From Microbispora hainanensis (GTDB lineage Bacteria > Actinomycetota > Actinomycetes > Streptosporangiales > Streptosporangiaceae): 64,000 nucleotides of DNA. Shown piece after piece: positions 12,911 through 59,739 of the stretch. Numbering within the stretch: the first letter of the stretch is position 1; each line of letters starts with the position of its first letter. The stretch spans positions 1 through 64,000 of the forward strand of contig NZ_VIRM01000048.1 in NCBI RefSeq assembly GCF_006874475.1, written 5' to 3'. Position numbers and translations under genes: made by a program. Under the pieces are notes generated by a model. The model did no database searches and was not told the origin of the DNA. It saw nothing but the letters and a program-made list of their open reading frames with translations.

Positions 12911-12920
12911 CCCGCTCGTT

Positions 12921-13778: not shown

Positions 13779-13849
13779 ACCGCGAGGGTATCGCCCGTGA
13801 CCGAGACGGTGTTGGGCACCGGGAGGGACGGGGTGGTGGGCTTGCCCCC

Positions 13850-14593: not shown

Positions 14594-14693
14594 CCGTGCT
14601 CACCGCCCTGCGCACCCGGCGGCAAGGCCGGTCCGGCCATCCGTCACGAGGCCCGGAAGCGGTTCTCCGGCGGCGCGGGGCCTGCTCGCCTAA

Positions 14694-14742
14694 AGCGGGA
14701 TGACCACGACGTCGTCTAGAGCGGGATGACCACGACGTCGTC
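14694..14742. repeat. 26-bp tandem duplication of the end of the LytM lipoprotein gene
   Basis: The 23-base sequence at 14720-14742, which encodes the last codons of the minus-strand gene (DDVVVIPL), is repeated at 14694-14716. The period is 26, and the stop codon lies between the copies (14716-14718). The second copy is untranslated. Confidence 0.85.
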
Positions 14743-15567: not shown

Positions 15568-15714
15568 GATCTCCACCTGGTCGACGTTACCGAACCTTTC
15601 CTTTCTAACGGACCAAGCCGCACATCACGACCGGTTCCGAAAAGTCGTGACATGTCCTGGACCATCCGCGGTGGAGCGTCCGGGCTGTCGGGGGCAGGCT
15701 CTAGACTCGCGAGC

Positions 15715-17634: not shown

Positions 17635-17666
17635 ATAAACGTCCCTTTCCAGATCTCACAGTCGCC

Positions 17667-17678
17667 AAACATATGTTT
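17667..17678. promoter_or_regulatory. Perfect 12-bp palindrome between dnaG and the sigma gene
   Basis: AAACATATGTTT is a perfect palindrome and AT-rich in an otherwise GC-rich spacer (17635-17768). It is not a terminator. A TTGACT hexamer (17695-17700) lies downstream of it, but I could not find a matching -10 at standard spacing, so the sigma-gene promoter remains undefined. Confidence 0.35.
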
Positions 17679-17768
17679 TGATCTCGATTCGGTATTGACT
17701 TCCGCCTTACCTTGGGTGACAAAAATAGGCCTGCCATTTAGTGGTGCCTTTCCTGCACACTGTGTTGC

Positions 17769-18920: not shown

Positions 18921-18947
18921 CGGCGGCTGACCTGACACCAACCGCGA

Positions 18948-18974
18948 ACGAGCGCCTCCCCTGGAGGCGCTCGT
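18948..18974 (+). terminator. Hairpin terminator of the sigma gene
   Basis: Perfect 12-bp arms (18948-18959 and 18963-18974) with a 3-nt loop follow the sigma-gene stop codon. There is no U-tract, as is common in actinobacteria. Confidence 0.75.
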
Positions 18975-19073
18975 CGCCGTTGTGCGCCCGGTTTGGCGCA
19001 GGGCGTTGGCGCGATCCATATGCGAGCCGCGCCGGGGAGTGTCACCATCGCGGGCGATCGAAAGGGAGACGAC

Positions 19074-19802
19074 ATGAGTGAGCCCGCGGTCCGGCCGAAC
19101 GAGACGACGGTGCCGTTGATGCCGTGCGCGTCGCCGGAGGAGACCCTGGCGTTCTACGAGGCGCTGGGATTCGAGACGACCTACAAACAGACCAGGCCCT
19201 ATGTCTATCTGGCGCTGCGGTGGAGCGGAATCCATCTGCACTTCGGCCCGGCGCCCAAAGACCTGGATCCGGCCCGGGAGCAGTCCGGGGCCTGCCTGGT
19301 CATGGTCGACGCCGTCGCGCCGTACCACGCGGAGTTCGTCGCGGCGATGCGCCGCGTCTACGGGAAGGTGCTGAGCTCCGGCCTGCCGCGGATCACCCGC
19401 TACCGGCCCGGCGCGTCGCGGTTCACGCTGATGGATCCGTCCGGCAACTCGATCATCTTCATCCAGCGCGACGAGCAGGCCGAGGTGGAATACGGCGGTT
19501 CGAAGAAGCTGACGGGCCTGGCCAAGGCGCTCGACAACGCCCGGATCCTGCGCGAGTTCAAGAACGACGACCTGCAGGCCTTCCGCGCGCTCAAGTCCGC
19601 CGTGCGCAGGCACGGCCCGGACGCCTCGCCGGCCGAGCGGGCCATCGCCCTGTGTCACCTCGTCGACCTGGCCACGGTCCTCGGTGAGCCCGCCGATCCC
19701 TGGCTCGCCGATCTGCGGGGTCTTGAGCTCACCGCCGACGACAGGCAGCGTGTCGAATCGGAGCTCGGGCATCTCGCCGGACTTCGCGAGTGGCTCCCCT
19801 GA
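19074..19802 (+). CDS. VOC (glyoxalase/bleomycin-resistance) superfamily protein with C-terminal helical extension
   Basis: Residues 10-135 form one VOC unit: VPLMPCASPEETLAFYEALGF, then HLHFGPAP, ACLVMVDAV and the closing FTLMDPSGNSIIFIQ. Residues 136-242 are an added helical region (LTGLAKALDNARILREFKNDD and so on) not found in short VOC proteins. Members bind metal and act as lyases, dioxygenases or drug-binding proteins; nothing here fixes the substrate. ATG 19074 is preceded by AAAGGGAGA. It is a single gene. Confidence 0.75.
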   Translation: MSEPAVRPNETTVPLMPCASPEETLAFYEALGFETTYKQTRPYVYLALRWSGIHLHFGPAPKDLDPAREQSGACLVMVDAVAPYHAEFVAAMRRVYGKVLSSGLPRITRYRPGASRFTLMDPSGNSIIFIQRDEQAEVEYGGSKKLTGLAKALDNARILREFKNDDLQAFRALKSAVRRHGPDASPAERAIALCHLVDLATVLGEPADPWLADLRGLELTADDRQRVESELGHLAGLREWLP

Positions 19803-44150: not shown

Positions 44151-44546
44151 TCAGCCGCCCCGCTCCGTCAGCCCGTACAGGTTGCCGTCGTGACCGCGGA
44201 TCTGCGCCCACCGGCCGTTTTCCCGCCAGGGGGTGGCCTGCGGCGCCACGACGATCTCCACTCCCCGCGCGTGCAGGTCCTGGCACGTGGCGTCGAGATC
44301 GTCGCAGTCGAACCAGCCGTGGGTCATCCGCCCCGCACGGGCGTGGAGCGCCTCCAGGATCTCCGGCTCGACGGCGGCGAGGGCCACGCACGTCTGCGCG
44401 CCCGGCGGGCGCACCTCGACCCAGCGCCGCCCGTCGCCCAGGGGGACGTCGGCCGCGAGCTCGAAGCCGAGCGTCCCCGTGAGGAACTCCAGGGTCCTGC
44501 CCTGGTCGCCGACGTAGAGCACGGCGAGCCGCGGGTTCACGATCAC
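44151..44546 (-). CDS. VOC-family protein
   Basis: The 131-residue single-unit VOC protein runs LAVLYVGDQGRTLEFLTGTL, GRRWVEVRPPGAQTCVALA, WFDCDDLDATCQDLHARGV and closes with AQIRGHDGNLYGLTE. GTG 44546 overlaps the stop of the ECF41 sigma gene (GTGA), so the two are co-translated. In ECF41 loci the co-transcribed gene is the likely target of the sigma factor. Substrate unknown. Confidence 0.82.
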   Translation of the reverse strand: MIVNPRLAVLYVGDQGRTLEFLTGTLGFELAADVPLGDGRRWVEVRPPGAQTCVALAAVEPEILEALHARAGRMTHGWFDCDDLDATCQDLHARGVEIVVAPQATPWRENGRWAQIRGHDGNLYGLTERGG

Positions 44547-45520
44547 GACGCCTCCCGGTGGCCTTCGCCGCTCACCCGCCCCGCATGAGACAGCGGACGG
44601 GGGTCGGACGGCGGGGCCGCCACCGGCGACGGGACGTCGGCGAGGCCGAGCCGCACCTCCTTCAGGCGTTCGGGATCGCCGATGACGTCGATGGACGCGA
44701 TGCGATCGCCGACCACGCCGATCTCGAGGACGAGCAGCAGGCGTCCGCGCGGCGCGATCACCGCCCCCACGGCGCCGTTGACGAGAGCGGGCCAGGCGAA
44801 GCGGGCCCTGCGGATGTTGGTGCGCGTCTCCTCGGCGACGGCGCGTGCGCCCCGCACCTCCGCCGGCGCCTTGGCCTGCCCGCGCAGGGCCGCGTAGTCC
44901 GCCCGGCGCACGACGTCGGGAGCCAGCACCGCCAGCAGCGCGTCGAGGTCGCCCGCTCTGGAGGCGGCCAGGAAGGCGTCCACGACCGCGCGCTGCCTGG
45001 CGAGGTCGGAGTAGGGGATGTCGGCCGAGCCGTGCACCCGGCGGCGGGCCCGGCTCGCCAGCTTCTTGGCGGCCGCCGGAGTGCGTTCCACGATCATGGC
45101 GATCTCGTCGAACGGCACGGCGAACAGGTCGTGCAGCACGAAGGCGGCGCGCTCGGCGGGGCCGAGCGTGTCGAGGACCACGAGCAGGGCGAGACCGACG
45201 GAGTCGGAGAGCACCGCCTCGTCGGCCGGGTCGCTGGTCTCGTCGTGGGGAGCCAGCATGTCGAGCTCGGTCAGGTCGGCGAGGTCCTCCCGCCGGCGGG
45301 TGCGGGAGCGCAGCATGTCGAGGCAGACCCGCCCGGTGATCGTCGTCAGCCAGGCGGTCAGGTTGTCGACGGAGCCGGAGTCGGCGCGGCAGGCGCGCAG
45401 CCAGGTCTCCTGCACCGCGTCGTCGGCCTCGTCGGCGCTGCCCAGCATGCGGAACGCGACGCCTCGCAGATGCCCTCGCGATCGGTCGAAGTGCTCGGCC
45501 AATTGGGCCTGGTCGTTCAT
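44543..45520 (-). CDS. ECF41/SigJ-type RNA polymerase sigma factor
   Basis: The 325-residue protein shows complete regions 2 (GVAFRMLGSADEADDAVQET, WLRACRAD) and 4 (LGPAERAAFVLHDLFAVPFD, EIAMIVERTPAAAKKLASRA), then a SnoaL-like C-terminal domain. It lacks an adjacent anti-sigma factor, as expected for this group, and is translationally coupled to a VOC gene. ATG 45520. It is one of three related sigma genes in 7 kb. Confidence 0.88.
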   Translation of the reverse strand: MNDQAQLAEHFDRSRGHLRGVAFRMLGSADEADDAVQETWLRACRADSGSVDNLTAWLTTITGRVCLDMLRSRTRRREDLADLTELDMLAPHDETSDPADEAVLSDSVGLALLVVLDTLGPAERAAFVLHDLFAVPFDEIAMIVERTPAAAKKLASRARRRVHGSADIPYSDLARQRAVVDAFLAASRAGDLDALLAVLAPDVVRRADYAALRGQAKAPAEVRGARAVAEETRTNIRRARFAWPALVNGAVGAVIAPRGRLLLVLEIGVVGDRIASIDVIGDPERLKEVRLGLADVPSPVAAPPSDPRPLSHAGRVSGEGHREAS

Positions 45521-46128: not shown

Positions 46129-47238
46129 GTGTCACTTCACACCGCAGCCGACGCCGATCGCGTACTCGCCACCCGCCTTCCCGACGTGGCGGATCTGCGC
46201 CACCTGCCCTGGGAGATCGTCCCCGTCCGCCACCTCACGTCCTCGCTCTCGCCGCGCAAGCGACCTGAGGACCCGGCGCATGTCCGGCTGCTCGCGGAGA
46301 CGGACCGCGCCCTCGATCCGCTCCTCGTGCACCGGCCGACGATGCGTGTGATCGACGGCATGCACCGGTTGCGCGCCGCCGTGCTGAAGGGCAGGAACGA
46401 GATCGCGGTCCGGTTCTTCGACGGAAGCGAGGCCGACGCGTTCGTGCTGTCGGTCCGGCTCAACGTCGGCCACGGACTGCCTCTGACGCTCGACGAACGA
46501 AAGGAGGCGGCCCGGCGCATCCTCGCCTCCCATCCGCACTGGTCGGACCGGGCGGTGGCCGAGAGCACGGGGCTGAGCGCGAAGACCGTGGCCACGGTTC
46601 GCCGCCGGCTCGACGGGCAGGAGGGGCTGCAGCACTCCCGCGTGGGCCGTGACGGGAGGTCCAGGCCGCTCAGCAGCATCGAGGGGCGACGCAGCGCGGC
46701 CGCCCTGCTTGCGGTCAACTCGGAGATCTCCCTTCGCGAGCTGTCCAGGAAGACGGGGCTCTCGGTGGGCACGGTCCGCGACGTACGCGAGCGGCTCGGC
46801 CGCGGGCAGGACCCGATCCCGGAACGGCTTCGCGCCAGGGAGGGGTCCGGCGCCGGGCCGCGCGGCACGACGCCGCCGGCGCGGGACCAGGACGCGGACG
46901 TCCCGTCCGGGGCCGTCCGGCGGGTGGGAGAAGCCCGCCGCCGGCCCGGGGGAAGCCGCCGGAGGGGCGAGACGAGGCCGGGCCGCGGGGCGGGGGAGAG
47001 CGCGGAGACGGTGGTCATGCTGCGCAAGCTCGCGCGTGACCCGTCGCTGCGGGCGACCGAGTCGGGGCGGCTGCTGCTGCGGATGCTCCTCGCCACCGAG
47101 GTGGGACCGGCCCAGTGGAAGGAGATCGCTGAGGCGATTCCCTCCCATTGCATGCCGCTCGTCCGCGCGGTCGTGCTGCAGAGATCGGAGGAATGGAAAC
47201 AGCTCGCGAGCATGGTGCCGGCCGCTTTCTCGGCGTGA
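46129..47238 (+). CDS. ParB/StrR-like cluster regulator
   Basis: The 369-residue protein has an N-terminal ParB-like domain (ALDPLLVHRPTMRVIDGMHR, FDGSEADAFVLSVRLNVGHG) and helix-turn-helix units (HWSDRAVAESTGLSAKTVAT; ISLRELSRKTGLSVGTVRDV). A Pro/Arg/Gly-rich linker (about residues 235-290) precedes a helical C-terminus. This is the make-up of StrR-type pathway activators in actinobacterial antibiotic clusters, not of chromosome-partition ParB. Its position just upstream of phzB suggests it controls the phenazine genes. GTG 46129 follows AAGGAAGG at 7 nt. Confidence 0.82.
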   Translation: MSLHTAADADRVLATRLPDVADLRHLPWEIVPVRHLTSSLSPRKRPEDPAHVRLLAETDRALDPLLVHRPTMRVIDGMHRLRAAVLKGRNEIAVRFFDGSEADAFVLSVRLNVGHGLPLTLDERKEAARRILASHPHWSDRAVAESTGLSAKTVATVRRRLDGQEGLQHSRVGRDGRSRPLSSIEGRRSAAALLAVNSEISLRELSRKTGLSVGTVRDVRERLGRGQDPIPERLRAREGSGAGPRGTTPPARDQDADVPSGAVRRVGEARRRPGGSRRRGETRPGRGAGESAETVVMLRKLARDPSLRATESGRLLLRMLLATEVGPAQWKEIAEAIPSHCMPLVRAVVLQRSEEWKQLASMVPAAFSA

Positions 47239-47344
47239 CGGCGAATGGCTTCACCAGTCCGCTATGAAATCGACGGAGGTGCCCTGATTCGAAAGTAACA
47301 GGGTGAAATATCGCCATTAATCGGTATCTGTTGGAGGGTTCATC

Positions 47345-47833
47345 GTGTCAGAGACGACTCGCTTTCCGGGAAGCGACGAAGAGATCGAACTCCGGAAGAT
47401 CAACCGAGCGACGGTCGAGAAGTACATGAACACCAGAGGCGAGGACCGGCTGCGGCGGCACCTGCTGTTCACCGAGGACGGCGTCGGCGGCCTGTGGACC
47501 AACGACACCGGGCAGCCGATCGCGATCCGCGGCCGCGACCGCCTCGGCGAGCACGCCGTCTGGTCGCTGAAGTGCTTCCCCGACTGGGTCTGGACCAACA
47601 TCCAGATCTTCGAGACGCACGACCCGAACTTCTTCTGGGTCGAGTGCGACGGCGAAGGCGCCATCCGCTTCCCCGGCTACCCCGAAGGCCACTACAGGAA
47701 CCACTTCCTGCACTCCTTCCAACTGGAGAACGGGAAGATCAAGCTGCAGCGCGAGTTCATGAACCCGTTCGAGCAGCTGCGCGCGCTGGGCATCCCCGTG
47801 CCCGAGATCAGGCGTGAGGGAATCCCCACCTGA
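47345..47833 (+). CDS. phzB: Phenazine biosynthesis protein PhzB (PhzA/B family)
   Basis: PhzA/B proteins are NTF2/SnoaL-fold enzymes that join two molecules of the ketone from PhzF into the tricyclic phenazine skeleton. The 162-residue length and sequence (NRATVEKYMNTRGEDRLRRH, GLWTNDTGQPIAIRGRDRLG, CFPDWVWTNIQIFETHDPNF, FFWVECDGEGAIRFPGYPEG, YRNHFLHSFQLENGKI) are typical PhzB. Only one copy exists, as in other actinobacterial clusters; pseudomonads have PhzA plus PhzB. GTG 47345 is preceded by TGGAGGG. Confidence 0.96.
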   Translation: MSETTRFPGSDEEIELRKINRATVEKYMNTRGEDRLRRHLLFTEDGVGGLWTNDTGQPIAIRGRDRLGEHAVWSLKCFPDWVWTNIQIFETHDPNFFWVECDGEGAIRFPGYPEGHYRNHFLHSFQLENGKIKLQREFMNPFEQLRALGIPVPEIRREGIPT

Positions 47834-47940
47834 CGCCCGCCGCCTGCCGTGGAACGGCGGCGGCCACCGGACGACCCCAGCCGTCCCCCGGCCGGGCGAC
47901 GACGACGGCGCCGAGAGCGCCTCGACCCCCATGGAGAACC

Positions 47941-49113
47941 GTGGATGACGTGATGCCCGCCATCCGGTTGGACGCCGCGCTGCAGCAGCCGGAGTGGAGC
48001 GATGTCTCGCAGGTCCAGCGCGTCAAGGAAGTGCTCGCCTCCCGGCCCCCGCTCGTCAGGCCCGCGGACGTGCGCACGCTGCGCGCCCTCCTCGCGGAGG
48101 TCGCCGCGGGAATCTCCCTGGTCGTACAGGCCGGGGACTGCGCGGAGAACCCGGAGGAATGCACACCGGAGCACGTGAGCCGCAAGTCCGCGGCGCTGGA
48201 CGTGCTGGCCGGCGCCCTCAAGATGATCACACACAAGCCCGTGCTGAGAGTCGGCCGCATCGGCGGCCAGTTCTCCAAGCCGCGTTCCAGCCCGATGGAG
48301 AAGGTCGGCGACCTCACCCTCCCGGCGTTCCGCGGGCACCTGGTCAACGGCCCGGAGCCGACGGCCGAGAGCAGGCAGCCCGATCCGTTGCGGATCCTCA
48401 CCGGCTACATGGCGGCCAGCGACATCATGGACCACCTCGCCTGGCGCGGCTCGTCCGTCCGGTCGCCGATCGACCCGCCCGTGTGGACGAGCCATGAGGC
48501 GCTGCTCCTCGACTACGAGGTCCCCATGCTCCGCAGGGACGGGTCGGGACGGCTGATCCTCGGCTCGACGCACTGGCCCTGGGTCGGCGAGCGGACGCGG
48601 CAGGTGGACGGCGCGCACGTCGCGCTGCTGTCCGAGGTCACCAACCCGGTCGCCTGCAAGGTCGGCCCGAAGACGACCAAGGACGAGCTGCTCGCCCTGT
48701 GCGAGCGGCTCGACCCCGAACGAGAGCCGGGCAGGCTCACGCTGATCTCCCGGATGGGCGCCGACCAGGTCGCCTACACCCTGCCGCCGCTCGTCGAGAC
48801 CGTCAGGTCCGCCGGGCACCCGGTCATCTGGCTCTGCGACCCCATGCACGGGAACACGCTGGTCACCCCGTCGGGGCACAAGACGCGCGTCGTGCCGACC
48901 ATGCAACGGGAGGTCCGCGAGTTCGTGGCCGCGGTCGAGAGCGCGGACGGCGTGCCCGGCGGCCTCCATCTGGAGACCACACCGGACGACGTCACCGAAT
49001 GCGTCGCCGACGAGAGCGGCTTCGACCACGTCGGCGACCGTTACAGCAGCTTCTGCGACCCCCGGCTGACCCTCTGGCAGGCGGTCTCGGTCATCTCAGC
49101 CTGGGGCGGCTGA
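47941..49113 (+). CDS. phzC: Class II DAHP synthase PhzC
   Basis: This enzyme condenses PEP and erythrose-4-phosphate to DAHP and raises shikimate flux for phenazine synthesis. The 390-residue class II (plant/AroAII) protein has LVVQAGDCAENPEECTPEHV with the metal-binding Cys, GRIGGQFSKPRSSPMEK, RMGADQVAYTLPPLVE, CDPMHGNTL and GGLHLETTPDDVTEC. The short N-terminus lacks the regulatory extension of housekeeping class II enzymes, which fits a feedback-insensitive form. GTG 47941; ATG 47953 is an alternative. Confidence 0.95.
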   Translation: MDDVMPAIRLDAALQQPEWSDVSQVQRVKEVLASRPPLVRPADVRTLRALLAEVAAGISLVVQAGDCAENPEECTPEHVSRKSAALDVLAGALKMITHKPVLRVGRIGGQFSKPRSSPMEKVGDLTLPAFRGHLVNGPEPTAESRQPDPLRILTGYMAASDIMDHLAWRGSSVRSPIDPPVWTSHEALLLDYEVPMLRRDGSGRLILGSTHWPWVGERTRQVDGAHVALLSEVTNPVACKVGPKTTKDELLALCERLDPEREPGRLTLISRMGADQVAYTLPPLVETVRSAGHPVIWLCDPMHGNTLVTPSGHKTRVVPTMQREVREFVAAVESADGVPGGLHLETTPDDVTECVADESGFDHVGDRYSSFCDPRLTLWQAVSVISAWGG

Positions 49114-49140
49114 CGCGACGGACACCAGGAAGGTCGTTAT

Positions 49141-49764
49141 ATGTCCGGCATACCCATGATCAAGCCCTACCTCCTCCCGGCCGCGGGCGACCTGCCCGCC
49201 AACCACGCCGGATGGACGCCCGACCCCGCTCGTGCCGTGCTCCTGATCCACGACATGCAGCGTTACTTCGTCAGGCCGTTCCCCGAGCCGATCAGGAAGG
49301 AACTCGTCGGCAACATCGCGCTGCTGCGCGAGCGGAGCGCCGCGCTCGGCGTGCCCGTGGGCTACACGGCCCAGCCCGGTGACATGACCGAGGAGCAACG
49401 CGGGCTCCTCAAGGACTTCTGGGGGCCGGGCATGCGCCGCGCCCCCGAGGACCGGCTCGTCGTCGACGAGCTCGCCCCCGCACCCGGCGACTGGATGTTC
49501 ACCAAGCTGCGGTACAGCGCCTTCTTCCGCTCCGACCTGCTGGAGCGCATGCGGCGCAGCGGTCGCGACCAGCTCGTCGTCTGCGGCGTGTACGCCCACG
49601 TCGGCGTGCTGATGACGGCCGTCGACGCGTTCACCAACGACCTGGAGACCTTCCTGGTCGCCGACGCCGTCGCCGACTTCACCGCCGGCTACCACCGCAT
49701 GACGGTCGAGTACGCGGCCGAACGCTGCGCGGTCGTCCTGACGGCCAAGGAGGTGTTCGCGTGA
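49141..49764 (+). CDS. phzD: Isochorismatase PhzD
   Basis: PhzD hydrolyses the vinyl ether of 2-amino-2-desoxyisochorismate to trans-2,3-dihydro-3-hydroxyanthranilate. The 207-residue protein has the catalytic Asp in [15 protein letters not shown] and the Lys in [12 protein letters not shown]. The loop that carries Cys in amidases of this superfamily reads VCGVYAHVG, as in PhzD, with no nucleophilic Cys. ATG 49141 has AGGAAGG 8 nt upstream. It overlaps phzE by 4 bases. Confidence 0.96.
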
Positions 49765-51650
49765 ACGGGCCGGACCCCGGTGGGGGTGACCTGCTCGGCG
49801 ACGTGCTGGAGCTCCGGGCGCCGGCCTTCGCGTTGCTGCACCGGCCCGAGGCGAACGGGCCGGGCCTGCTGGACGTGCTGACGGGTGAGATCACGCACCT
49901 TCGCGAGCTCGCGGACATCCCGCTGCCCGGCGCACGGGAACCGGCGGCGGGCGGCGTCCACCACGCGCTCGTCGTCGTCCCCTATCGGCAGGTCCGCGAG
50001 CGGGGCTTCGCCTGCGCCGACGACGGCGCTCCGCTCGTCGCGATGACCGTGACGCGACAGGGCGCGGTTCCGGTCGCCGAGGCGCTGGACCGGATACCCG
50101 ACCTGCCCTTCGCGGTCTCGGGCGGGCACTTCGACGTGAGCGACGACGACTACGCCGAGATCGTCCGCAGGGTCGTCAAGGAGGCGATAGGCGAGGGCGA
50201 AGGGGCGAACTTCGTCATCAAGAGGTCCTTCGTCGCCGACATCGGGAACTACACGCCGCGCTCCGCCCTGGCCTTCTTCCGGCGCCTGCTGGAGGTCGAG
50301 TCGGGCGCCTACTGGACCTTCGTGGTCCACACCGGCGAGCGGACGTTCGTGGGCGCCACCCCCGAGCGGCACGTGACGCTGCGGAACGGCGTCGCGACCA
50401 TGAACCCGATCAGCGGCACCTACCGCTATCCGCCGTCGGGCCCCTCGCTGCCCGGGGTCATGGACTTCCTCGCCGACCGCAAGGAGTCCGACGAGCTCTA
50501 CATGGTCCTGGACGAGGAGCTCAAGATGATGGCGCGGATCTGCGAGCCCGGCGTCCGCGTGACGGGCCCCCGGCTCAAGGAGATGGCGCGGCTCGCGCAC
50601 ACGGAGTATTTCATCGAGGGCGAGACCGGCTGGGACGTGCGCGACATCCTCCGCGAGACCATGTTCGCCCCGACCGTCACCGGCAGCCCGGTGGAGAACG
50701 CCTGCCGGGTCATCGACCGGCACGAGCCGCACGGCCGGGGCTACTACAGCGGGGTCGTCGCCCTCATCGGGCGTGACGAGGACGGCAGGCAGACCCTCGA
50801 CTCCTCCATCCTCATCCGGACCGCCGACATCGACCGCGCCGGCCGGACGCGGATGGGCGTCGGCGCCACCCTCGTACGCCACTCGGACCCGATGTCGGAG
50901 GTCGCGGAGACCCGGGCGAAGGCCGCGGGCCTGCTCGCGGCGCTCGACACCGGCGACAGCGGCCGGCTCAGGGCCCGTCCGGAGGTCCGCGAGGCGCTGG
51001 AGCGGCGCAACGCGAACATCGCCGGCTTCTGGCTGGGCGGCCATGCCGGGGACACGCCGGCCGAGCCGGTGCCGGCCGGGGTGCGCACCCTCATCGTCGA
51101 CGCCGAGGACACCTTCACCTCGATGCTGGACCACCAGTTGCGCAGCCTGGGCATGTCGGTGACCGTGCGGCGCCACGACGACGGGCCGTCGCTGGACGGG
51201 TGGGACCTCGTGGTACTGGGGCCCGGCCCCGGCGACCCCCGCGACCCGGCCCACCCGAAGATCGCTTTTCTGCGGGCGGCGGCGGACGCGCTGCTGTCGG
51301 CCCGGCGTCCCTTCCTGGCCGTCTGCCTCAGTCACCAGGTGCTGTCCACCCGGCTCGGGTTCGCCCTGCAGCGCCGCGACATCCCCAACCAGGGGGTGCA
51401 GAAGGAGATCGGCCTGTTCGGCGCGCGAGAGCGCGTGGGGTTCTACAACACCTTCGCGGCCCGGGCGGAGGCGGACCTGGCCGAGATCGACGGCGTCGGC
51501 ACCGTGGAGATCTGCCGCGATCCTTCGACCGGCGAGGTGCACGCGCTGCGCGGCCCGCACTTCTCCTCCATCCAGTTCCACGCCGAGTCGGTGCTCACCG
51601 AGAACGGCCCGCGCATCCTGGGCTCCTTGATGAAAGGACTGCTGTCGTGA
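49761..51650 (+). CDS. phzE: 2-amino-2-desoxyisochorismate synthase PhzE
   Basis: PhzE converts chorismate and glutamine-derived ammonia to ADIC, the branch point into phenazines. The 629-residue fusion has an anthranilate synthase-I-like domain ([70 protein letters not shown]) and a C-terminal class I glutamine amidotransferase with the Cys in [16 protein letters not shown] and the His-Glu pair in [13 protein letters not shown]. It overlaps phzD and phzF by 4 bases each (GTGA). Confidence 0.96.
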
Positions 51651-52516
51651 CCATCGCTGACCAGTCCGTGCTGGAGGGGGCGCGTCCGTACGTGGTCGTC
51701 GACGCGTTCACCGACACGCCGCTGCAGGGCAATCCGGTCGCCGTCTTCTTCGAGGCCGAGGACCTCTCCGACGACCGCATGCAGCGCATCGCCAGGGAGA
51801 TGAACCTGTCGGAGGTCACCTTCGTCCTCCCGCCCCGGCTGGGTGGCGACGCCCGCATCCGCATCTTCACCCCCGTGAACGAGCTCCCGTTCGCCGGGCA
51901 CCCGCTTCTGGGCACCGCCATCGCGCTGGGCGAGACCCGCGGGGGCGACATGCTCCGGCTGGAGACGGCGATGGGTGTCATCGCCTTCGACCTGAAGCGG
52001 GTGAACGGGCGGGCCGTCGCCGCCGAGATGGAGCAGCCCGTCCCGACCTGGGCGGAGTTCGACCGGGCCGGGGAACTGCTCGCCGCGCTCGGCCTGACCT
52101 CCTCCGCGCTGCCCGTCGTGATCTACCACAACGGTCCCCGGCACGTGTTCGTAGGGCTGGAGAGTACGGCGGCGCTGTCCCGGGTCGACCCCGACCAACG
52201 CGCGCTGGCCGCCTTTCCCGACATGGCGACCAACTGCTTCGCCGGTTCCGGCTCGACCTGGCGCAGCCGGATGTTCTCGCCCGCGTACGGCGTGGCCGAG
52301 GACGCGGCCACGGGGTCGGCGGCCGGCCCGCTGGCGATCCATCTCGCCCGGCACGGGCGCATCGGGTTCGGGCAGTGGATCGACATCCACCAGGGCGTCG
52401 AGATGGGCCGGCCCTCGCTCATGCGGGCCCGCGCCGACGGGACCGCGGAGCACGTCACCTCCGTACGGGTCGGCGGCTCGGCCGTGACCGTCGCTCGCGG
52501 AGTGATCTACGCCTGA
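51647..52516 (+). CDS. phzF: DHHA isomerase PhzF
   Basis: PhzF isomerises dihydro-hydroxyanthranilate to the reactive aminoketone. The 289-residue diaminopimelate-epimerase-fold protein shows the catalytic Glu56 (EMNLSEVTF), His85 (LPFAGHPLLG) and Asp in AEDAATGSAAGPL; Glu56 and His85 correspond to Glu45 and His74 of P. fluorescens PhzF with a constant offset of 11. GTG 51647 overlaps the phzE stop. Confidence 0.96.
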   Translation: MTIADQSVLEGARPYVVVDAFTDTPLQGNPVAVFFEAEDLSDDRMQRIAREMNLSEVTFVLPPRLGGDARIRIFTPVNELPFAGHPLLGTAIALGETRGGDMLRLETAMGVIAFDLKRVNGRAVAAEMEQPVPTWAEFDRAGELLAALGLTSSALPVVIYHNGPRHVFVGLESTAALSRVDPDQRALAAFPDMATNCFAGSGSTWRSRMFSPAYGVAEDAATGSAAGPLAIHLARHGRIGFGQWIDIHQGVEMGRPSLMRARADGTAEHVTSVRVGGSAVTVARGVIYA

Positions 52517-52636
52517 ACGGCGCGACCGGCCCGTCCGGCCGGGTCCCCGCCCTTTTCCACCCCCTCCCCGCCCTTGCCATCGGGGACGGCCGCGCCCCGC
52601 GGCCGTCCCCCGCTCCCACAGCTTGCGGAGGCGACA

Positions 52637-53272
52637 GTGAGCAGCAGGTTCGAGAGTCTGACCGGCGCCATCGACCCGGCGTTCCCCGAGTACGACATGC
52701 CGCCCGCCGAGCCGATGGACCTCGCGCGGCAGTGGATCGCCGGGGCGGTGGAGGCCGGGGTGCGCGAACCGCTGGCGCTCGCGCTCGCGACCGCCGACCG
52801 CGGCGGCCGGGCCTCCACCCGCATGGTCGCCGTCATCGACGTCGGCGACCGGGGCCTGGTCTTCACCAGCCACAGCACCAGCAGGAAGGGCCGGGAGATC
52901 GCGCAGACCGGCTGGGCCTCGGGCCTGCTCTACTGGCGCGAGACCGCCCGGCAGCTCAGCTTCTCCGGCCCGGTGGCCATGCTGCCCGAGCCCGAGGCGG
53001 AACGCCTGTGGAACGCCCGGCCGGTGCCGCTGCACGCGATGTCGGTGGCCTCCCGGCAGAGCGAACCCCTGGAGGACGTCGCCCGGCTCAGGTCGGAGGC
53101 GGAGCGCCTGGCGTCCTACGGAATCTCCTTGCCGCGCCCGGCGCGCTTCGCCGGATATCGCCTGGAGCCTGCCGCCGTCGAGTTCTGGTCGGCCGACGCC
53201 GACCGGCTGCACCGGCGGCTGCGTTACGACCGGACTCCCTCCGGTTGGCACATCTCACGGCTGCAGCCGTGA
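52637..53272 (+). CDS. phzG: FMN-dependent oxidase PhzG
   Basis: PhzG, related to pyridoxamine phosphate oxidase, aromatises the tricyclic intermediates to phenazine-1-carboxylic or 1,6-dicarboxylic acid. The 211-residue protein has the PdxH-like FMN site (RASTRMVAVIDVGDRGLVFT, TSHSTSRKGREIAQ, LYWRETARQLSFSGPV) and the C-terminal VEFWSADADRLHRRLRYDR. GTG 52637 follows GCGGAGG. The gap to phzF is 120 bases and contains Pro-codon-rich sequence but no hairpin that I can support. Confidence 0.94.
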   Translation: MSSRFESLTGAIDPAFPEYDMPPAEPMDLARQWIAGAVEAGVREPLALALATADRGGRASTRMVAVIDVGDRGLVFTSHSTSRKGREIAQTGWASGLLYWRETARQLSFSGPVAMLPEPEAERLWNARPVPLHAMSVASRQSEPLEDVARLRSEAERLASYGISLPRPARFAGYRLEPAAVEFWSADADRLHRRLRYDRTPSGWHISRLQP

Positions 53273-53313
53273 CCCCCTCCCCACAGGGACAGGAAACACG
53301 AAGGAGTGCAACC

Positions 53314-54939
53314 TTGACCGACACGACAGACACCGACTTCGACGCGATCGTCGTCGGCACCGGCTTCGCCGGAATCTACATGCTCCACACGCTCCGCAAC
53401 GAGCTCGGCTTACGGGTGCGGGCCTTCGACCGGGCCGGCGGCGTGGGCGGCACCTGGTACTGGAATCGCTACCCCGGCGCCATGTCGGACGTCGAGGGCT
53501 TCGTCTATCGCTACTCCTTCGACAAGCAGATGCTCCAGGAGTGGGACTGGACCACCAAGTACACCCCGCAGCGGGAGCTCCTCGCCTATCTCGAGGCGGT
53601 CGTCGCCAAGCACGACCTGGGCAGGGACATCCAGCTGAACACCGGCATCGAGAGCGCGGTGTTCGACGAGTCGCGGGGTGTCTGGACCGTCGGCACCGAC
53701 ACCGGTGAGAGCTTCACCGCGCGGTACGTCGTCACCGCGCTCGGGCCGCTGTCGACGGCGAACATCCCCGACATCAAGGGCCGTGACCGTTTCCAGGGCA
53801 GGATCGTCCACACCGGCTCCTGGCCCGACGACCTGACGATCGAGGGCAAGCGCGTCGGCGTCGTCGGCACGGGATCCACCGGCACCCAGTTCGCCTGCGC
53901 CGCCGCCAAGGTGGCCGAGCACCTGACGGTGTTCCAGCGCTCGGCGCAGTATTGCGTCCCGTCCGGCCACGGCCCCGTCACCGAGGGGTACGTCGCGGAG
54001 GTGCGCGCGTCGTACGACCGCATCTGGGAGCAGGTGCGCGGCTCCCGCGTCGCCTGTGGCTTCGAGGAGAGCGACGTCCCCGCCATGAGCGTTTCCGAGG
54101 AGGAGCGCCGGCGGGTGTTCCAGGAGTACTGGGACAAGGGGAACGGCTTCCGCTTCATGTTCGGCACGTTCTCCGACATCGCGACCGATCCCGAGGCCAA
54201 CGAGGCCGCGGCGGAGTTCATCCGGTCGAAGATCCGCGAGATCGTGAAGGATCCGGAGACGGCGCGCAAGCTGACGCCGAGCGACTTCTACGCCAAGCGC
54301 CCCATCTGCAACCCCGATTACTACGAGATCTTCAACCGCGACAACGTCTCCCTGGTCAGCATCAAGGAGACGCCGATCAAGGAGATCACTCCCACGGGAG
54401 TGCTCACCGAGGACGGAGTGGAGCACGAGCTCGACGTCCTGGTCTTCGCCACGGGCTTCGACGCCGTGGACGGCAGCTACAAGCGGATGGACATCCGCGG
54501 ACGGGGCGGCGTGACGATCCGGGACCACTGGGAGGACGGGCCCACCAGCTATCTCGGCGTCGCCACCCACGGCTTCCCCAACCTGTTCATGGTCCTCGGC
54601 CCCAACAGTGCCTTCAGCAACCTCCCGCCCGGCATCGAGACGCAGGTCGAGTGGATCGGCGACCTGATCCGCACGGCTGAGGAGAACGGCACCACCGTGA
54701 TCGAGGCCACCAGGAACGCCGAGGACGAGTGGACCGAGACCTGCGGGAAGCTCGCGGACTACACGCTCTTCCCCAAGGTCAAGTCGTGGATCTTCGGCGC
54801 GAACATCCCCGGCAAGAAGAACAGGGTCATGTTCTACTTCGCGGGGCTCGCGTCCTACCGGCTCAAGCTCGGCGAAGTGGCCGAGGCGGGCTACGAGGGA
54901 TTCGACCTGCACGCCAGCCCCTCGCTGACGCCGGCCTGA
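53314..54939 (+). CDS. Baeyer-Villiger-type flavin monooxygenase, probable phenazine N-oxygenase
   Basis: The 541-residue class B flavoprotein has two Rossmann motifs (VGTGFAGIYMLHTL and VGVVGTGSTGTQFA) and the Baeyer-Villiger fingerprint F-x-G-x3-H-x3-W in FQGRIVHTGSWPDD. The WNRYPGAMSDVEGFVYRYSF segment is typical of cyclohexanone monooxygenase relatives. To my knowledge the phenazine N-oxygenases of Nocardiopsis (NaphzNO1) and Lysobacter (LaPhzNO1) belong to this family, so N-oxidation of a hydroxyphenazine is the best guess. TTG 53314 has AAGGAG 7 nt upstream. It is the last gene of the phzB-led unit; a hairpin covers its stop. Confidence 0.88.
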   Translation: MTDTTDTDFDAIVVGTGFAGIYMLHTLRNELGLRVRAFDRAGGVGGTWYWNRYPGAMSDVEGFVYRYSFDKQMLQEWDWTTKYTPQRELLAYLEAVVAKHDLGRDIQLNTGIESAVFDESRGVWTVGTDTGESFTARYVVTALGPLSTANIPDIKGRDRFQGRIVHTGSWPDDLTIEGKRVGVVGTGSTGTQFACAAAKVAEHLTVFQRSAQYCVPSGHGPVTEGYVAEVRASYDRIWEQVRGSRVACGFEESDVPAMSVSEEERRRVFQEYWDKGNGFRFMFGTFSDIATDPEANEAAAEFIRSKIREIVKDPETARKLTPSDFYAKRPICNPDYYEIFNRDNVSLVSIKETPIKEITPTGVLTEDGVEHELDVLVFATGFDAVDGSYKRMDIRGRGGVTIRDHWEDGPTSYLGVATHGFPNLFMVLGPNSAFSNLPPGIETQVEWIGDLIRTAEENGTTVIEATRNAEDEWTETCGKLADYTLFPKVKSWIFGANIPGKKNRVMFYFAGLASYRLKLGEVAEAGYEGFDLHASPSLTPA

Positions 54940-54967
54940 GGCCGGGCTGACCTCCGCCTCAGGCCGG
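54931..54967 (+). terminator. Hairpin terminator at the end of the phzB-to-monooxygenase unit
   Basis: Perfect 12-bp arms CCGGCCTGAGGC (54931-54942) and GCCTCAGGCCGG (54956-54967) enclose a 13-base loop. The left arm contains the TGA stop of the monooxygenase gene. Confidence 0.75.
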
Positions 54968-55078
54968 GGGAGGGCACACCCTCCGGGGTCCGTGACGGGC
55001 CCCGGTGGGTTCCGGGTGGGTCCGGCGCCGACGTCGGCGCGGCATCACGCGCCGGACCCACTCCCCGGGATCACGACG

Positions 55079-55162
55079 GACCTGTTCCCAGGGTCCTGTT
55101 CCCAGGTTCCGCTCGCGCGGTCGTCCTCGCGCGGTCGTGCTCGCGCGGTCCCGTTCCCGCGG
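55079..55162. repeat. 14-nt tandem array x6 inside the phenazine cluster
   Basis: Six contiguous 14-base units (55079-55092 to 55149-55162), for example GACCTGTTCCCAGG, TCGTCCTCGCGCGG and TCGTGCTCGCGCGG. The units drift along the array, but the 14-base register is kept. It lies in the 396-bp spacer 54940-55335, which holds no gene. Confidence 0.8.
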
Positions 55163-55298
55163 GGTGGCGAGCGGGAGCGTCAGGACGGCCGTGAAGCCGT
55201 CCGCGTGCCCGGTTGCGATAAGCGGTATTTCCTGCTCTGCGCGCGCGATATTCGGAGAGAAGCTCGTGTTCGGAATCCTGTTTAATCAACAATCGGGC

Positions 55299-55329
55299 TT
55301 GACTGAATTGGTTCTTTGTCGGATACGAT
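55299..55329 (+). promoter_or_regulatory. Promoter giving a leaderless mRNA for the ABM gene
   Basis: TTGACT (55299-55304) and TACGAT (55324-55329) are 19 bases apart; reading the -10 as ATACGA gives 18. Transcription would start about 6-7 bases behind the -10, at the A of the ATG at 55336. No ribosome site precedes that ATG. The surrounding sequence is AT-rich. Confidence 0.6.
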
Positions 55330-55335
55330 GAAGTC

Positions 55336-55662
55336 ATGAGTGAGACAGTGATTCGGGTCGGCGATCAGCACGCGACATTCATCAACGTCTTCGACGTCGA
55401 CCCCTCGCAGCAGCAGGAACTCATCGCCATTCTCGACGAGGGTGCCGAGAAGGTCATGCGGCACCGGCCCGGCTTCATCTCGGTGAACATTCTCGCCAGC
55501 CTCGACGGCAGCCGGGTCGTGAACCTCGCCCAGTGGCGCAGCCCGGACGACATCAAGGCCACCGCGGGCGACCCCGAGGCGCAGGTCTTCGCCAAGAGGG
55601 CGGCGGAGATCGCCAAGGCGGCCCCCCAGGCGTACAAGGTCGTCTCCGTTCATCACGCCTGA
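55336..55662 (+). CDS. ABM-fold monooxygenase-like protein, possible phenazine modification or self-resistance
   Basis: The 108-residue protein has the ABM barrel pattern: ATFINVFDVDPSQQQELIAI, KVMRHRPGFISVNILASLDG, RVVNLAQWRSPDDIKAT. In Lysobacter antibioticus a small ABM protein (LaPhzX, as I recall) lies in the myxin cluster and takes part in self-resistance; the position between the N-oxygenase and phzS-like genes here suggests a counterpart. It has its own promoter, apparently leaderless, and its own terminator, so it can be expressed separately from the biosynthetic unit. Confidence 0.8.
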   Translation: MSETVIRVGDQHATFINVFDVDPSQQQELIAILDEGAEKVMRHRPGFISVNILASLDGSRVVNLAQWRSPDDIKATAGDPEAQVFAKRAAEIAKAAPQAYKVVSVHHA

Positions 55663-55718
55663 CCAGGAACTTCCCGGTCGGAATCCAGAAGCCGGCCCGG
55701 GCCCCGGCACGGCACGCT

Positions 55719-55748
55719 CCGTCCCGCCTCTCGGCATCGGCGGGACGG
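55719..55748 (+). terminator. Hairpin terminator behind the ABM gene
   Basis: Ten-bp perfect arms CCGTCCCGCC (55719-55728) and GGCGGGACGG (55739-55748) with a 10-base loop lie 57 bases behind the stop. Confidence 0.7.
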
Positions 55749-55769
55749 GGCCCCGCCCGCACCCCGTAA

Positions 55770-57083
<1,314 letters not shown>

Positions 57084-57106
57084 GCGGACGGGACCGCGCG
57101 GGCTGT

Positions 57107-57134
57107 GGCCACCCTCGTCCGTCCCCGGGTGGCC
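57107..57134 (+). terminator. Hairpin terminator behind the phzS-like gene
   Basis: GGCCACCC (57107-57114) pairs with GGGTGGCC (57127-57134). A second small stem, CCCCC/GGGGG, overlaps at 57133-57146. Confidence 0.6.
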
Positions 57135-57250
57135 CCCTGCCGGGGGCGACCGGGAAACGTGACCGGCGGAATTGCGGAATCGCCGGCATCTTCCGGCGTC
57201 CTGGAAATGCGAATTCGCGGATGTCGATTTCGATATTGCGCACAGCGGCG

Positions 57251-57282
57251 CGGCATTCTGACAACGCATTCACAGAATGCCG
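57251..57282. promoter_or_regulatory. Inverted repeat with 12-bp spacer
   Basis: Perfect 10-bp arms CGGCATTCTG (57251-57260) and CAGAATGCCG (57273-57282) lie in the gene-free spacer 57084-57595. The arm length and spacer fit an operator for a dimeric regulator better than a terminator, but no promoter or gene start lies close by. Confidence 0.4.
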
Positions 57283-57440
57283 ATCAGGAGTCTCGATATA
57301 CGTCTTTACCCGCGCCGGTGCGGGCCCGGCGCGGCTTTCGGTGGCGGGCCTCGACGGCGCGGAACAGGCTCTCCGTTCGTGTCTCTGCTTCCCGTCCTTA
57401 AGACGAATCGCGCCGCGGAAAGGTGACATGCCGCGGGTCC

Positions 57441-57474
57441 GCGGTGGTGTCCGCCGAGGGACGGACACCACCGC
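57441..57474. terminator. Bidirectional hairpin between the phzS-like and AzoR genes
   Basis: Perfect 13-bp arms (57441-57453 and 57462-57474) with an 8-base loop lie between two convergent genes. Confidence 0.75.
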
Positions 57475-57504
57475 TCGTCCGAGGCCGCTACGGGCGGCCG
57501 CGGC

Positions 57505-57546
57505 GCCCTGTGCGCTGTGCCCTGTGCGCTGTGCGCTGTGCCCTGT
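57505..57546. repeat. Heptanucleotide array (GCSCTGT)6
   Basis: Six contiguous 7-mers, GCCCTGT or GCGCTGT, occupy 57505-57546, 49 bases before the AzoR stop. Two units make 14 bases, the period of several other arrays in the window. Confidence 0.9.
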
Positions 57547-57595
57547 GTCGGGCGGCGGGGTTGGCACGCTGCCCCGGTCCGTCGGTGCCGGGACC

Positions 57596-58309
57596 TCACC
57601 GCATGCGCGTCGCCGCCCCGCTGCCGACCGGCCGGCGGGCCAGCTCGGACACGGCGGTCCTCGCCGCGGCCAGCGAGTCCGCCGCCAGGGGCTTGAAGTG
57701 AGCGAGGGCGGGCACGTCCGAGGCCCGGGTCATCTCGGCATGCACGAAGTGCAGGTTCTCCGGCGCCACGCCCAGCTCGGTGAAGTAGGCCCTCAGGTAG
57801 GGCGTCTGGAAGTCGAAATCCTCCCGCGGCGTGCCCGGCGCGTAGCAGCCGCCGCGGGCGGTGACCACCACCACGTTCGTCTCCCGGAGCAGCCGGTTGC
57901 CCGTGCCGGGGTCGACGAACGCCCCGGGGAAGGTCACCCGGTCGATCCACGCCTTGAGGGACGCGGGCACGGAGAAGTTGTACATCGGGACGCCGGCCAG
58001 CACCGTCTCCGCGGCGCGCATCTCTTCGATAAGCGGGAGGGTCAGCGCCCACTCGCGCTCCTCGGCGGGGCCGGCGGTCATCTCCGCCACCTTCCGCAGC
58101 GGAACCGCCCCGTGCCTCTCCACCCGGATGCCGAGGGAGACGAAGGCCGGCGAGACCAGCGGGACCGGGTCGGCGGCGAGGTCGCGGTATCGGTACCCGG
58201 CGCTCCCGTGGAGACACCGCCACGTGTCCGCGTAGAACGCCGTCAACTCCCTGGTGACCGAGTCGCCGCCGCCGCTGGCGCTGGCGTCCATGTGCAGCAG
58301 GGACGTCAC
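57596..58309 (-). CDS. AzoR-type FMN-dependent NADH:quinone reductase/azoreductase
   Basis: The 237-residue flavodoxin-fold protein has HMDASASGGGDSVTREL at the start, the ETVLAGVPMYNFSVPASLKA segment and the loop VVVVTARGGCYAPGTP typical of AzoR. These enzymes reduce quinones and azo dyes by two electrons. Convergent to the phzS-like gene, it might reduce phenazines or their N-oxides and so protect the producer; this is inference from position. GTG 58309 follows AGGGGGTGGG. Confidence 0.82.
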   Translation of the reverse strand: MTSLLHMDASASGGGDSVTRELTAFYADTWRCLHGSAGYRYRDLAADPVPLVSPAFVSLGIRVERHGAVPLRKVAEMTAGPAEEREWALTLPLIEEMRAAETVLAGVPMYNFSVPASLKAWIDRVTFPGAFVDPGTGNRLLRETNVVVVTARGGCYAPGTPREDFDFQTPYLRAYFTELGVAPENLHFVHAEMTRASDVPALAHFKPLAADSLAAARTAVSELARRPVGSGAATRMR

Positions 58310-58488: not shown

Positions 58489-59739
58489 GTGACATCGCAT
58501 TCGGATCCGCGCGTACGTCCGTCGGGACCGGAATGGGTCGCGGTGCGGCGACGCCTGGACGGGCACCGGCACGAGCTGGCCGCTGCGGCGGATCGGCTCT
58601 ATCCCGCGACGGCCAGGGCCGGATCGACCCGCCTGCTCACCCGGGACGGCTGGACGGCGACCCCATGGACCCTGGCCACGCCGCTCGACCTGCGCGAGGT
58701 GCGGCTCGGCTGGGTGGACGACGCTCCCGCACCCGCCGTCACGGGACGCGAACCGGAGGCGGCGGCCCTGCTGCCGGAGGGCGCCGGCGCCTATCCGGAC
58801 GCGCTGGGGACGCTCGCCCGCCCCCGGCTCTTCGAGGACCGCACCTGCTACCGGCTGCTGGACGTCGCCTGGCCCGAGCTGACCTTCACCCGCGCACGCT
58901 ACTTCGACGGCGTGAGCGTCGGAGAGGCGGCCGCCCACGAGTTCGCGGCGTACAAGCTCGCCGGGCAGGAGTCCGGCGAGCGTGAGCCTGCTGGGCAGGA
59001 GTCTGGTGGGCAGGGGTTCGACAGGCAGGGGTTCGACAGGCAGGGCTTCGACGGGCAGGGGTTCGGCGGGCGGGGGCTCGGTGGGCATGAGCGTGCCGGG
59101 CATGGGGCCGGGCGGCGGCTGCCGTTCCGTACGCTCGTGGGCGACCCCACCGACCTGCGCAGGCGGCCCGCGCTCTGTGCGATCTCCACCCTCACGCTGC
59201 GCCGCGACCGCCGTACGGGGGAGACGTCGTTCGTGCTGCACTGGCGTGACCCGGCCAAGGTGGCGCACGGCGGCGGGCTCTTCCAGGTCATGCCGGTCGG
59301 GGTGTTCCAGCCCGCGCACGAGTCCGCGGGCGCGGAGAAGGCCGACCTCGACCTGTGGAAGTGCGTGGTCCGCGAGTACGCCGAGGAGTTCCTGGGGCGG
59401 GGAGAGGAGTACGGCGACGGCTTCGATTACGAGAGCTGGCCGTTCTACCGCCTGCTGACGGATGCCCGCGAGGACGGGCGGGTGCGTTGCCACGTGCTGG
59501 GCGTGGGGGTCGATCCGCTGACGTTCGCGACCGACTTCCTCACGGTGACCGTGCTGGAGGCGGAGACGTTCGACGCCGCCTTCGGCGAGGTCGCCGCCTC
59601 CAACAGTGAGGGCCGGATCGTCGGCCGTGTCCCGTTCGACGCGGAGACCGTGCGCCGGCACGTCCGCGACGAGCCGATGCAGGCGGCGGGCGCGGCCGTG
59701 CTCGACCTCGCCTGGCGGCACCGCGAGGCGCTGCTGTAG
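58489..59739 (+). CDS. Nudix-like regulator-type protein with internal repeats
   Basis: The 416-residue protein resembles the effector part of actinobacterial HTH regulators with a Nudix-like domain: LDLWKCVVREYAEEFLGRGE corresponds to the Nudix box position, followed by CHVLGVGVDPLTFATDFLTV. The HTH part is absent. Between residues about 160 and 205 it has a run of 5-residue repeats (GQGFD, RQGFD, RQGFD, GQGFG and variants), encoded by 15-nt tandem units at 58966-59112, that looks like an unstructured insert. GTG 58489 follows two near-identical 20-nt units. Confidence 0.65.
   Translation: MTSHSDPRVRPSGPEWVAVRRRLDGHRHELAAAADRLYPATARAGSTRLLTRDGWTATPWTLATPLDLREVRLGWVDDAPAPAVTGREPEAAALLPEGAGAYPDALGTLARPRLFEDRTCYRLLDVAWPELTFTRARYFDGVSVGEAAAHEFAAYKLAGQESGEREPAGQESGGQGFDRQGFDRQGFDGQGFGGRGLGGHERAGHGAGRRLPFRTLVGDPTDLRRRPALCAISTLTLRRDRRTGETSFVLHWRDPAKVAHGGGLFQVMPVGVFQPAHESAGAEKADLDLWKCVVREYAEEFLGRGEEYGDGFDYESWPFYRLLTDAREDGRVRCHVLGVGVDPLTFATDFLTVTVLEAETFDAAFGEVAASNSEGRIVGRVPFDAETVRRHVRDEPMQAAGAAVLDLAWRHREALL

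Follow-up and report, generated by a model that had tools for sequence, protein, structure and literature searches.

A phenazine gene cluster of Microbispora hainanensis predicted to yield an iodinin-type N-oxide

The stretch of DNA analyzed here (the window) comprises 64,000 nucleotides, positions 1 to 64,000 of contig NZ_VIRM01000048.1 in the 8.7-Mb assembly of the soil actinomycete Microbispora hainanensis (GCF_006874475.1), and it carries a phenazine (phz) gene cluster that we predict to be of the iodinin type. Every named cluster gene is present with an open frame, and all genes from the regulator through the PhzS-like hydroxylase lie on the forward strand (Table 1). The core set phzBCDEFG is complete: all six genes were recognized by family profiles (Pfam, NCBIfam) and stand in a compact, codirectional order, with 4-base overlaps between phzD and phzE and between phzE and phzF, as an earlier reading made from the letters alone (the sequence-only reading) had described. 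The further genes that it listed, encoding a Baeyer-Villiger monooxygenase (BVMO)-type flavoprotein that is our phenazine N-oxygenase candidate (NO), an ABM protein, a PhzS-like enzyme, and an AzoR-like protein, were likewise all found with open frames, the last on the reverse strand. The window phzB is the single PHZA_PHZB match in the host genome. The cluster had also been said to lack an O-methyltransferase, and indeed no methyltransferase family is among the profile matches of its 11 genes; the four PF00891 matches in the genome are all on other contigs. In this respect the cluster departs from the myxin type.

Table 1. Genes of the phenazine cluster and its flanks, in order along the window
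Gene or product	Position	Strand	Matches and remarks
ECF sigma factor, SnoaL_2-like C-terminus	44543..45520	-	Pfam Sigma70_r2, Sigma70_r4_2; SnoaL_2 below cutoff
Pathway regulator candidate, helix-turn-helix (HTH) protein, N-terminus weakly ParB-like	46129..47238	+	Pfam HTH_24, HTH_23
phzB (PhzA/B)	47345..47833	+	PF03284 PHZA_PHZB 1.6e-89
phzC, class II DAHP synthase	47941..49113	+	PF01474 DAHP_synth_2 7e-124
phzD, isochorismatase family	49141..49764	+	PF00857 Isochorismatase 1.1e-38
phzE, chorismate-binding and glutamine amidotransferase	49761..51650	+	PF00425 Chorismate_bind 5.7e-41; PF00117 GATase 1.8e-24
phzF, isomerase	51647..52516	+	PF02567 PhzC-PhzF 1.7e-78; TIGR00654 over cutoff
phzG, FMN-dependent oxidase	52637..53272	+	NCBIfam NF038138 phena_PhzG equivalog, 317.6 bits (cutoff 270)
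NO, phenazine N-oxygenase candidate, BVMO-type flavoprotein	53314..54939	+	FMO-like 2.6e-14; TTG start; TTA codon 33
ABM protein, candidate self-protection enzyme, positional counterpart of LaPhzX	55336..55662	+	PF03992 6.2e-10
PhzS-like FAD hydroxylase	55866..57083	+	FAD_binding_3 5.5e-27; 494.6 bits to 3c96 over residues 6-400
AzoR-like flavodoxin-fold protein	57596..58309	-	PF02525 Flavodoxin_2 4.9e-28

Relatives of the NO were found in five named contigs, belonging to Microbispora bryophytorum (95% identity), M. triticiradicis (90%), M. amethystogenes (90%), [Actinomadura] parvosata subsp. kistnae (75%), and Streptomyces sp. DH12 (73%). The block regulator-phzB-C-D-E-F-G-NO-ABM-PhzS recurs in four of the five, the exception being Streptomyces sp. 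DH12, and in M. amethystogenes (L008; L and G numbers are our handles for loci and genomes) all genes from the regulator to AzoR are present at protein identities of 79 to 94%. Since the same order recurs in other genera, it is not a chance arrangement. Two side observations concern these contigs. phzC and phzF of A. parvosata subsp. kistnae (L011/L051) each match in two pieces, reflecting sequencing error or decay, and in Streptomyces sp. DH12 (L009, 10001 to 13528) the phz genes are followed by two opposite-strand genes that resemble an ABC-transporter pair by eye. The cluster type is known, and the locus adds a further member of that type in Microbispora; the literature searched returned no gene-by-gene description of this cluster in Microbispora.

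The NO carries the type I BVMO fingerprint FQGRIVHTGSWP at position 160 and GxGxxG motifs at 15 and 185. Among proteins of solved structure, its closest relative is the cyclohexanone monooxygenase TmCHMO (855 bits, 68% identity), and we therefore surveyed which of the NO's relatives come from phz clusters. A 40-row tree placed the 18 phz-encoded NOs (that of the window and those of 17 loci; the half-length NO of L054 was omitted) in one clade with support of 100/100. Its sister, at 100/99, comprised eight rows, TmCHMO and L129 to L135, and no phz gene was found in the 20-kb stretches read around the seven TmCHMO-group loci. An earlier tree that held all 20 distant rows recovered the same 18-row clade at 100/100, with TmCHMO as its sister only at 85/40. 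The NO of L060, taken as the type strain of Nocardiopsis dassonvillei, a species with a published phzNO1 in strain 502F (PMC10581944), falls within the phz clade, apart from the ketone BVMOs. A grouping with ketone BVMOs, which the sequence-only reading had named as refuting, is half borne out: the nearest solved enzyme is one, but the NO sits in a distinct, wholly phz-encoded clade. L134 shows 100% identity to TmCHMO over 532 residues (encoding genome G1039). We considered whether TmCHMO might itself be a phenazine N-oxygenase; this is unsupported, as it lies outside the phz clade and has no phz gene in its 20 kb.

At an E value of ≤1e-190, the NO was matched in 19 of the 345 genomes of the window's order; 17 of these matches lie in phz clusters, and those of G109 and G342 fall outside the clade. 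In the order of TmCHMO, 12 of 397 drawn genomes carried a relative at this threshold, none with phz genes beside it in the 20 kb read. A class-level search at ≤1e-150 matched 25 of 394 genomes, with five (G000, G065, G066, G077, and G093) in the clade and the other 20 at 45 to 58% identity; no phz genes were found near the three of the latter that were read (L143 to L145). A plasmid search gave 156 records, with a top identity of 64%.

The substrate pocket was then compared between the two groups. Positions T60, L145, L428, P430, F434, T435, and L437 of TmCHMO were taken as contacts, L145, P430, F434, and T435 being described as ligand contacts, and positions 59 and 329 were drawn from the same source (PMC5213842; this and the other papers cited are used in excerpt). 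TmCHMO can be aligned gap-free with the window NO from residue 3 to 534, so that a common numbering applies. Positions 246, 248, 277, 279, 432, 433, 492, 505, and 507 were added as presumed pocket or neighboring positions. D59, R329, P430, and F434 are retained in all 18 clade rows. The clade is changed at five positions, L145P (17 of 18, with one V) and T435S, G432S/T, P433A/V, and F248C/A/G (18 of 18 each), whereas the 17 phz-negative rows, which include one protein twice (TmCHMO and L134), mostly keep L145 (16 rows), T435 (15), G432 (16), P433 (16), and F248 (15). At each of these five positions every clade row differs from every TmCHMO-group row. Position 60 is nondiscriminating (V in 8 clade rows, S in 8, T in 2), positions 428 and 492 vary inside the clade, and a scan for clade-fixed positions beyond the chosen list returned only C195 (18/18). 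We infer that the peroxyflavin chemistry is unchanged and that the pocket has been reshaped to fit a flat tricyclic substrate. The signature also offers a means of telling phz-encoded N-oxygenase candidates and cyclohexanone monooxygenases apart when genomes are surveyed.

In order to determine which genes accompany the NO, a PHZA_PHZB profile search was carried out over the 345 genomes of the window's order, and it gave 80 genomes at an E value of ≤0.001, many of them weak. The co-occurrence set comprised 33 phz loci, namely, L009 and 32 loci with a strong match (L042 to L073); the window and four loci with lone or weak PhzA/B (L074 to L077) were excluded. Several of the 33 share a genome with another locus, and the identity and length thresholds were chosen by us within the same script. 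An NO is present in 18 of these loci. At our length threshold, PhzS accompanies the NO in 16 of the 18 and occurs in none of the 15 NO-negative loci. The corresponding counts are 15/18 and 1/15 for the regulator, 14/18 and 1/15 for the ECF gene, and 11/18 and 1/15 for AzoR. The one NO-negative locus with the regulator, ABM, AzoR, and ECF is L059, a decayed copy whose NO and PhzS were scored as absent on account of their short pieces. Fisher P values across the cluster genes ranged from 1.5e-7 (PhzS) to 0.003 (AzoR); they ignore relatedness and for that reason are not treated as probabilities. The two NO-positive loci without PhzS are L009 and L054; the latter is truncated by a contig end, and elsewhere in that genome a single contig carries PhzS, ABM, and AzoR side by side. 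The window's own PhzS-like protein is close to a single solved enzyme (2rgj/3c96, which we take to be Pseudomonas aeruginosa PhzS; listed as a flavin-containing monooxygenase), the next different solved protein scoring 118.6 bits. A core-gene tree of phzD and phzF (31 rows; L053, L059, and L062, each without one of the genes, were dropped) did not group the NO-positive rows on its best topology, where the NO-negative L058 and L061 fall among them. This topology needs two changes in NO presence, and the well-supported branches require just one.

We consider it about 77% probable that the locus is an iodinin-type cluster that leads from phenazine-1,6-dicarboxylic acid (PDC) through 1,6-dihydroxyphenazine to the N-oxide(s) of the latter. 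Judged by their families, PhzC, D, E, B, F, and G would carry chorismate to PDC and some phenazine-1-carboxylic acid (PCA). The PhzS-like enzyme would swap carboxyl for hydroxyl groups, giving 1,6-dihydroxyphenazine and some 1-hydroxyphenazine, and the C4a-peroxyflavin of the NO would oxygenate the ring nitrogen beside a hydroxyl, so that the mono-N-oxide and probably also the di-N-oxide, iodinin, would form. M. hainanensis CSR-4 yielded 1-hydroxyphenazine and 1,6-dihydroxyphenazine, and phenazine synthesis is among its antiSMASH results (PMC7338456); a hydroxyphenazine precursor is therefore on record for Microbispora. The sequence-only reading had proposed PhzS-type hydroxylation with N-oxidation and an iodinin-type product, and this is supported by the NO tree, by the co-occurrence over 33 loci, and by the published 1,6-dihydroxyphenazine of Microbispora. 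Iodinin is a long-known purple antibiotic pigment, and a 1964 report is said to describe it from Waksmania (Microbispora) aerata. Thermobispora bispora is a former Microbispora. The locus would supply a candidate gene set for an iodinin-type pigment in Microbispora, and phenazine N-oxides are under study as antileukemic leads.

Several observations weigh against this assignment. The core genes cannot tell PDC from PCA output. The Streptomyces sp. DH12 locus has phzB to phzG and an NO, but neither PhzS nor ABM was found within the 21.6 kb read, so that NO and PhzS are separable. The phz-negative L140 has P145 and S432 like the clade. In the excerpt used, the chemistry of CSR-4 names no N-oxide (PMC7338456). 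N. dassonvillei 502F, whose phz cluster holds phzS, phzX, and phzNO1, made other phenazines, and compounds 1 to 4 as given in the excerpt include no N-oxide (PMC10581944). Finally, NaphzNO1 of Nocardiopsis converts 1-hydroxyphenazine to a mono-N-oxide, the N10-oxide (PMC11130421, PMC11477647). The NaphzNO1 reaction, together with the 1-hydroxyphenazine found alongside the 1,6-diol in M. hainanensis, would suit an alternative in which a mono-N-oxide (1,6-dihydroxyphenazine 5-oxide or 1-hydroxyphenazine 10-oxide) predominates and little or no iodinin is made, with one nitrogen oxidized or most flux running to PCA. We regard this outcome as unlikely, given that LaPhzS and LaPhzNO1 together convert PDC to iodinin (PMC7591250) and that iodinin production was among the traits scored when T. 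bispora, itself negative, was described (PMC3035289).

A second alternative concerns the ABM protein, which might be a biosynthetic monooxygenase that adds a further ring oxidation, so that the end product would be a phenazine oxidized beyond iodinin. PDB relatives of the protein are 9lsd (68.6 bits) and ActVA-Orf6 (1lq9, 37.6 bits), and ActVA-Orf6, like ABM family membership itself, favors this alternative, being a biosynthetic monooxygenase. Against it, the gene is missing in 5 of the 18 NO-positive loci (one, L054, is cut off by the end of its contig, and an ABM lies on another contig of that genome), and it outlasts the pathway in two genomes. The phz-negative Microbispora G076 (L148, 4992 to 5526) has, between ECF and azoR, a phzB remnant followed by an intact ABM. 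The remnant comprises 57 bases matching the 3' part of the gene (window 47715 to 47771) with a score of 35, compared with ≤18 in 300 dinucleotide shuffles; the ABM is stop-free and 84% identical over 108/108 residues. G322 (L059, 10131 to 17774) holds a decaying copy with internal deletions, in which the regulator, phzB, ABM, azoR, and ECF keep open frames as far as they align, phzC, phzE, NO, and PhzS are fragmentary, and phzD, phzF, and phzG gave no match. We therefore hold a biosynthetic ABM to be improbable.

The retention of ABM in both cases of loss fits a role in self-protection, at which these genomes hint, although G322 keeps the regulator and phzB too, which argues against a special role of ABM there. 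At an E value of ≤1e-15, ABM occurs in 7 of 15 Microbispora genomes, six with phz genes and G076, and at ≤1e-20 it occurs in 7 of 120 genomes drawn from the family, all with an NO-type cluster or, in G322, its decayed copy. The ratio of nonsynonymous to synonymous substitution rates was 0.35 to 0.47 for the G076 ABM against six others and 0.22 to 0.32 for three phz-positive pairs. These values lean toward some relaxation in G076 and likewise speak against a special role; purifying selection on ABM after loss of the cluster, which we had entertained, is unsupported. On the basis of its family and its place in an N-oxide phenazine cluster, the protein is assigned to the LaPhzX type. A defense role for LaPhzX has been proposed, by likeness to PumA, and not demonstrated (PMC7927275). 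In the pathway put forward here, ABM would probably disarm the product or by-products. We can offer only tentatively, as something less than an even chance, the broader idea that ABM is an immunity gene that disarms phenazine N-oxides or reduced radicals and is retained by former producers against their neighbors, with ECF/AzoR as a stress module that attracts such clusters since it already handles redox-cycling aromatics. G076, which lost the cluster and kept ABM, is a natural test case for how producers survive phenazine N-oxides.

An NO that is simply a cyclohexanone-type BVMO, oxidizing ketones and lying beside phz genes by chance, is very improbable, for despite its intact fingerprint and its likeness to TmCHMO, all 18 clade rows are phz-encoded and differ from the TmCHMO group, whose loci lack phz genes in the 20 kb read, at positions 145, 248, 432, 433, and 435.

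The ECF gene, which flanks the cluster and which we label ECF41 by assumption, is not exclusive to the cluster, as had seemed possible; it is also found in phz-negative Microbispora. In two of these (G069 and G075), ECF and azoR lie about 0.1 kb apart, and the right flank is that of the window; the left flank meets the window again near 38.5 kb, with the result that the window's region from about 38.6 to 44.5 kb is also missing. At an E value of ≤1e-70, azoR occurs in 41 of the 345 genomes of the order; by hand count, 14 have an NO-type cluster, 1 a decayed copy (G322), 1 a scar (G076), and 25 none. The 30 azoR loci other than intact clusters or contig fragments of one were read for about 1.5 kb per side, and relics were sought inside these stretches. 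ECF lies beside azoR with zero phz genes in 17 of the 30, or in 18 counting G076 with its ABM alone. The phz block sits between ECF and azoR, which on this comparison appear to be an older pair, and the sites without it would be either ancestral or clean losses. AzoR had been presented as a dedicated cluster gene. That view did not hold, with 27 of the 41 azoR genomes lacking an intact NO-type cluster and ECF often as its partner, and a pathway enzyme was rejected as the default; AzoR is probably not one, and its enrichment near NO-positive clusters makes a supporting role possible. Downstream in the window, a gene at 58489 to 59739 contains a repetitive Gly/Gln-rich stretch at 58960 to 59110 (e.g., GQGFDRQGFDGQGFGG) and has no Pfam match.

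The regulator probably governs the operon. It had been called ParB/StrR-like: its HTH character stands by Pfam, and the ParB part is weak. No ParB family was among its Pfam and NCBIfam matches, the single sequence gave a best PDB hit (E = 0.29) that was not a ParB protein, and a 12-row profile weakly matched a PDB chain of the ParB family over positions 41 to 101 (E = 0.0047). Codon 33 of the NO is the sole TTA among 12 genes examined and is shared by four of six Microbispora (the window, G073, G066, and G078). Of eight other loci, where five genes were scanned, six carry a TTA in the regulator, two carry one at codon 146 of the NO, and one has it in phzE. TTA is read by a rare leucine tRNA, bldA, through which control of the cluster is possible.

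Three loci (L049, L052, and L055, at about 12600 to 19200) carry a variant NO-type phz cluster that lacks the regulator and ABM. The L049 variant adds a vanadium-chloroperoxidase-like protein (VCPO_2nd, 4.8e-51), a Trp_halogenase-family flavoprotein (2.5e-42), and a glutaredoxin-domain protein; these extras occur in all three loci at 84 to 90% identity to the L049 copies, with profiles run on L049. The predicted product is a halogenated phenazine N-oxide, a branch for which no description was found in the literature searched.

Among known systems, P. aeruginosa PhzS resembles the window's hydroxylase (494 bits over 395 residues), and the latter adjoins an N-oxygenase candidate gene. TmCHMO of Thermocrispum municipale (PDB 5m0z) equals the NO in length and shares its catalytic residues; unlike the NO, it differs at the five pocket positions and has no phz genes in its surroundings. 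It acts on ketones, and its upstream genes may serve cyclohexanol degradation (PMC5213842). Compared by description only, the LaPhz cluster of Lysobacter antibioticus (myxin/iodinin) likewise has LaPhzB to LaPhzG, a BVMO-like LaPhzNO1, LaPhzS, and a small monooxygenase, LaPhzX; unlike the window, it has an O-methyltransferase, LaPhzM, and a different flank (PMC7927275). Brevibacterium iodinum, a species known for purple iodinin crystals, has a phzGFEDCB cluster (PMC5719810) and is likened here by description only. In L060, phzB to phzG are present and the regulator (59%), NO (72%), ABM (62%), PhzS (68%), AzoR (62%), and ECF (66%) of the window all have counterparts; unlike in the window, its ABM and PhzS genes make up an opposite-strand block that lies upstream of the regulator. 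L060 is taken to lie on a plasmid of 775,354 bases, and a cluster of this type can therefore be plasmid-borne.

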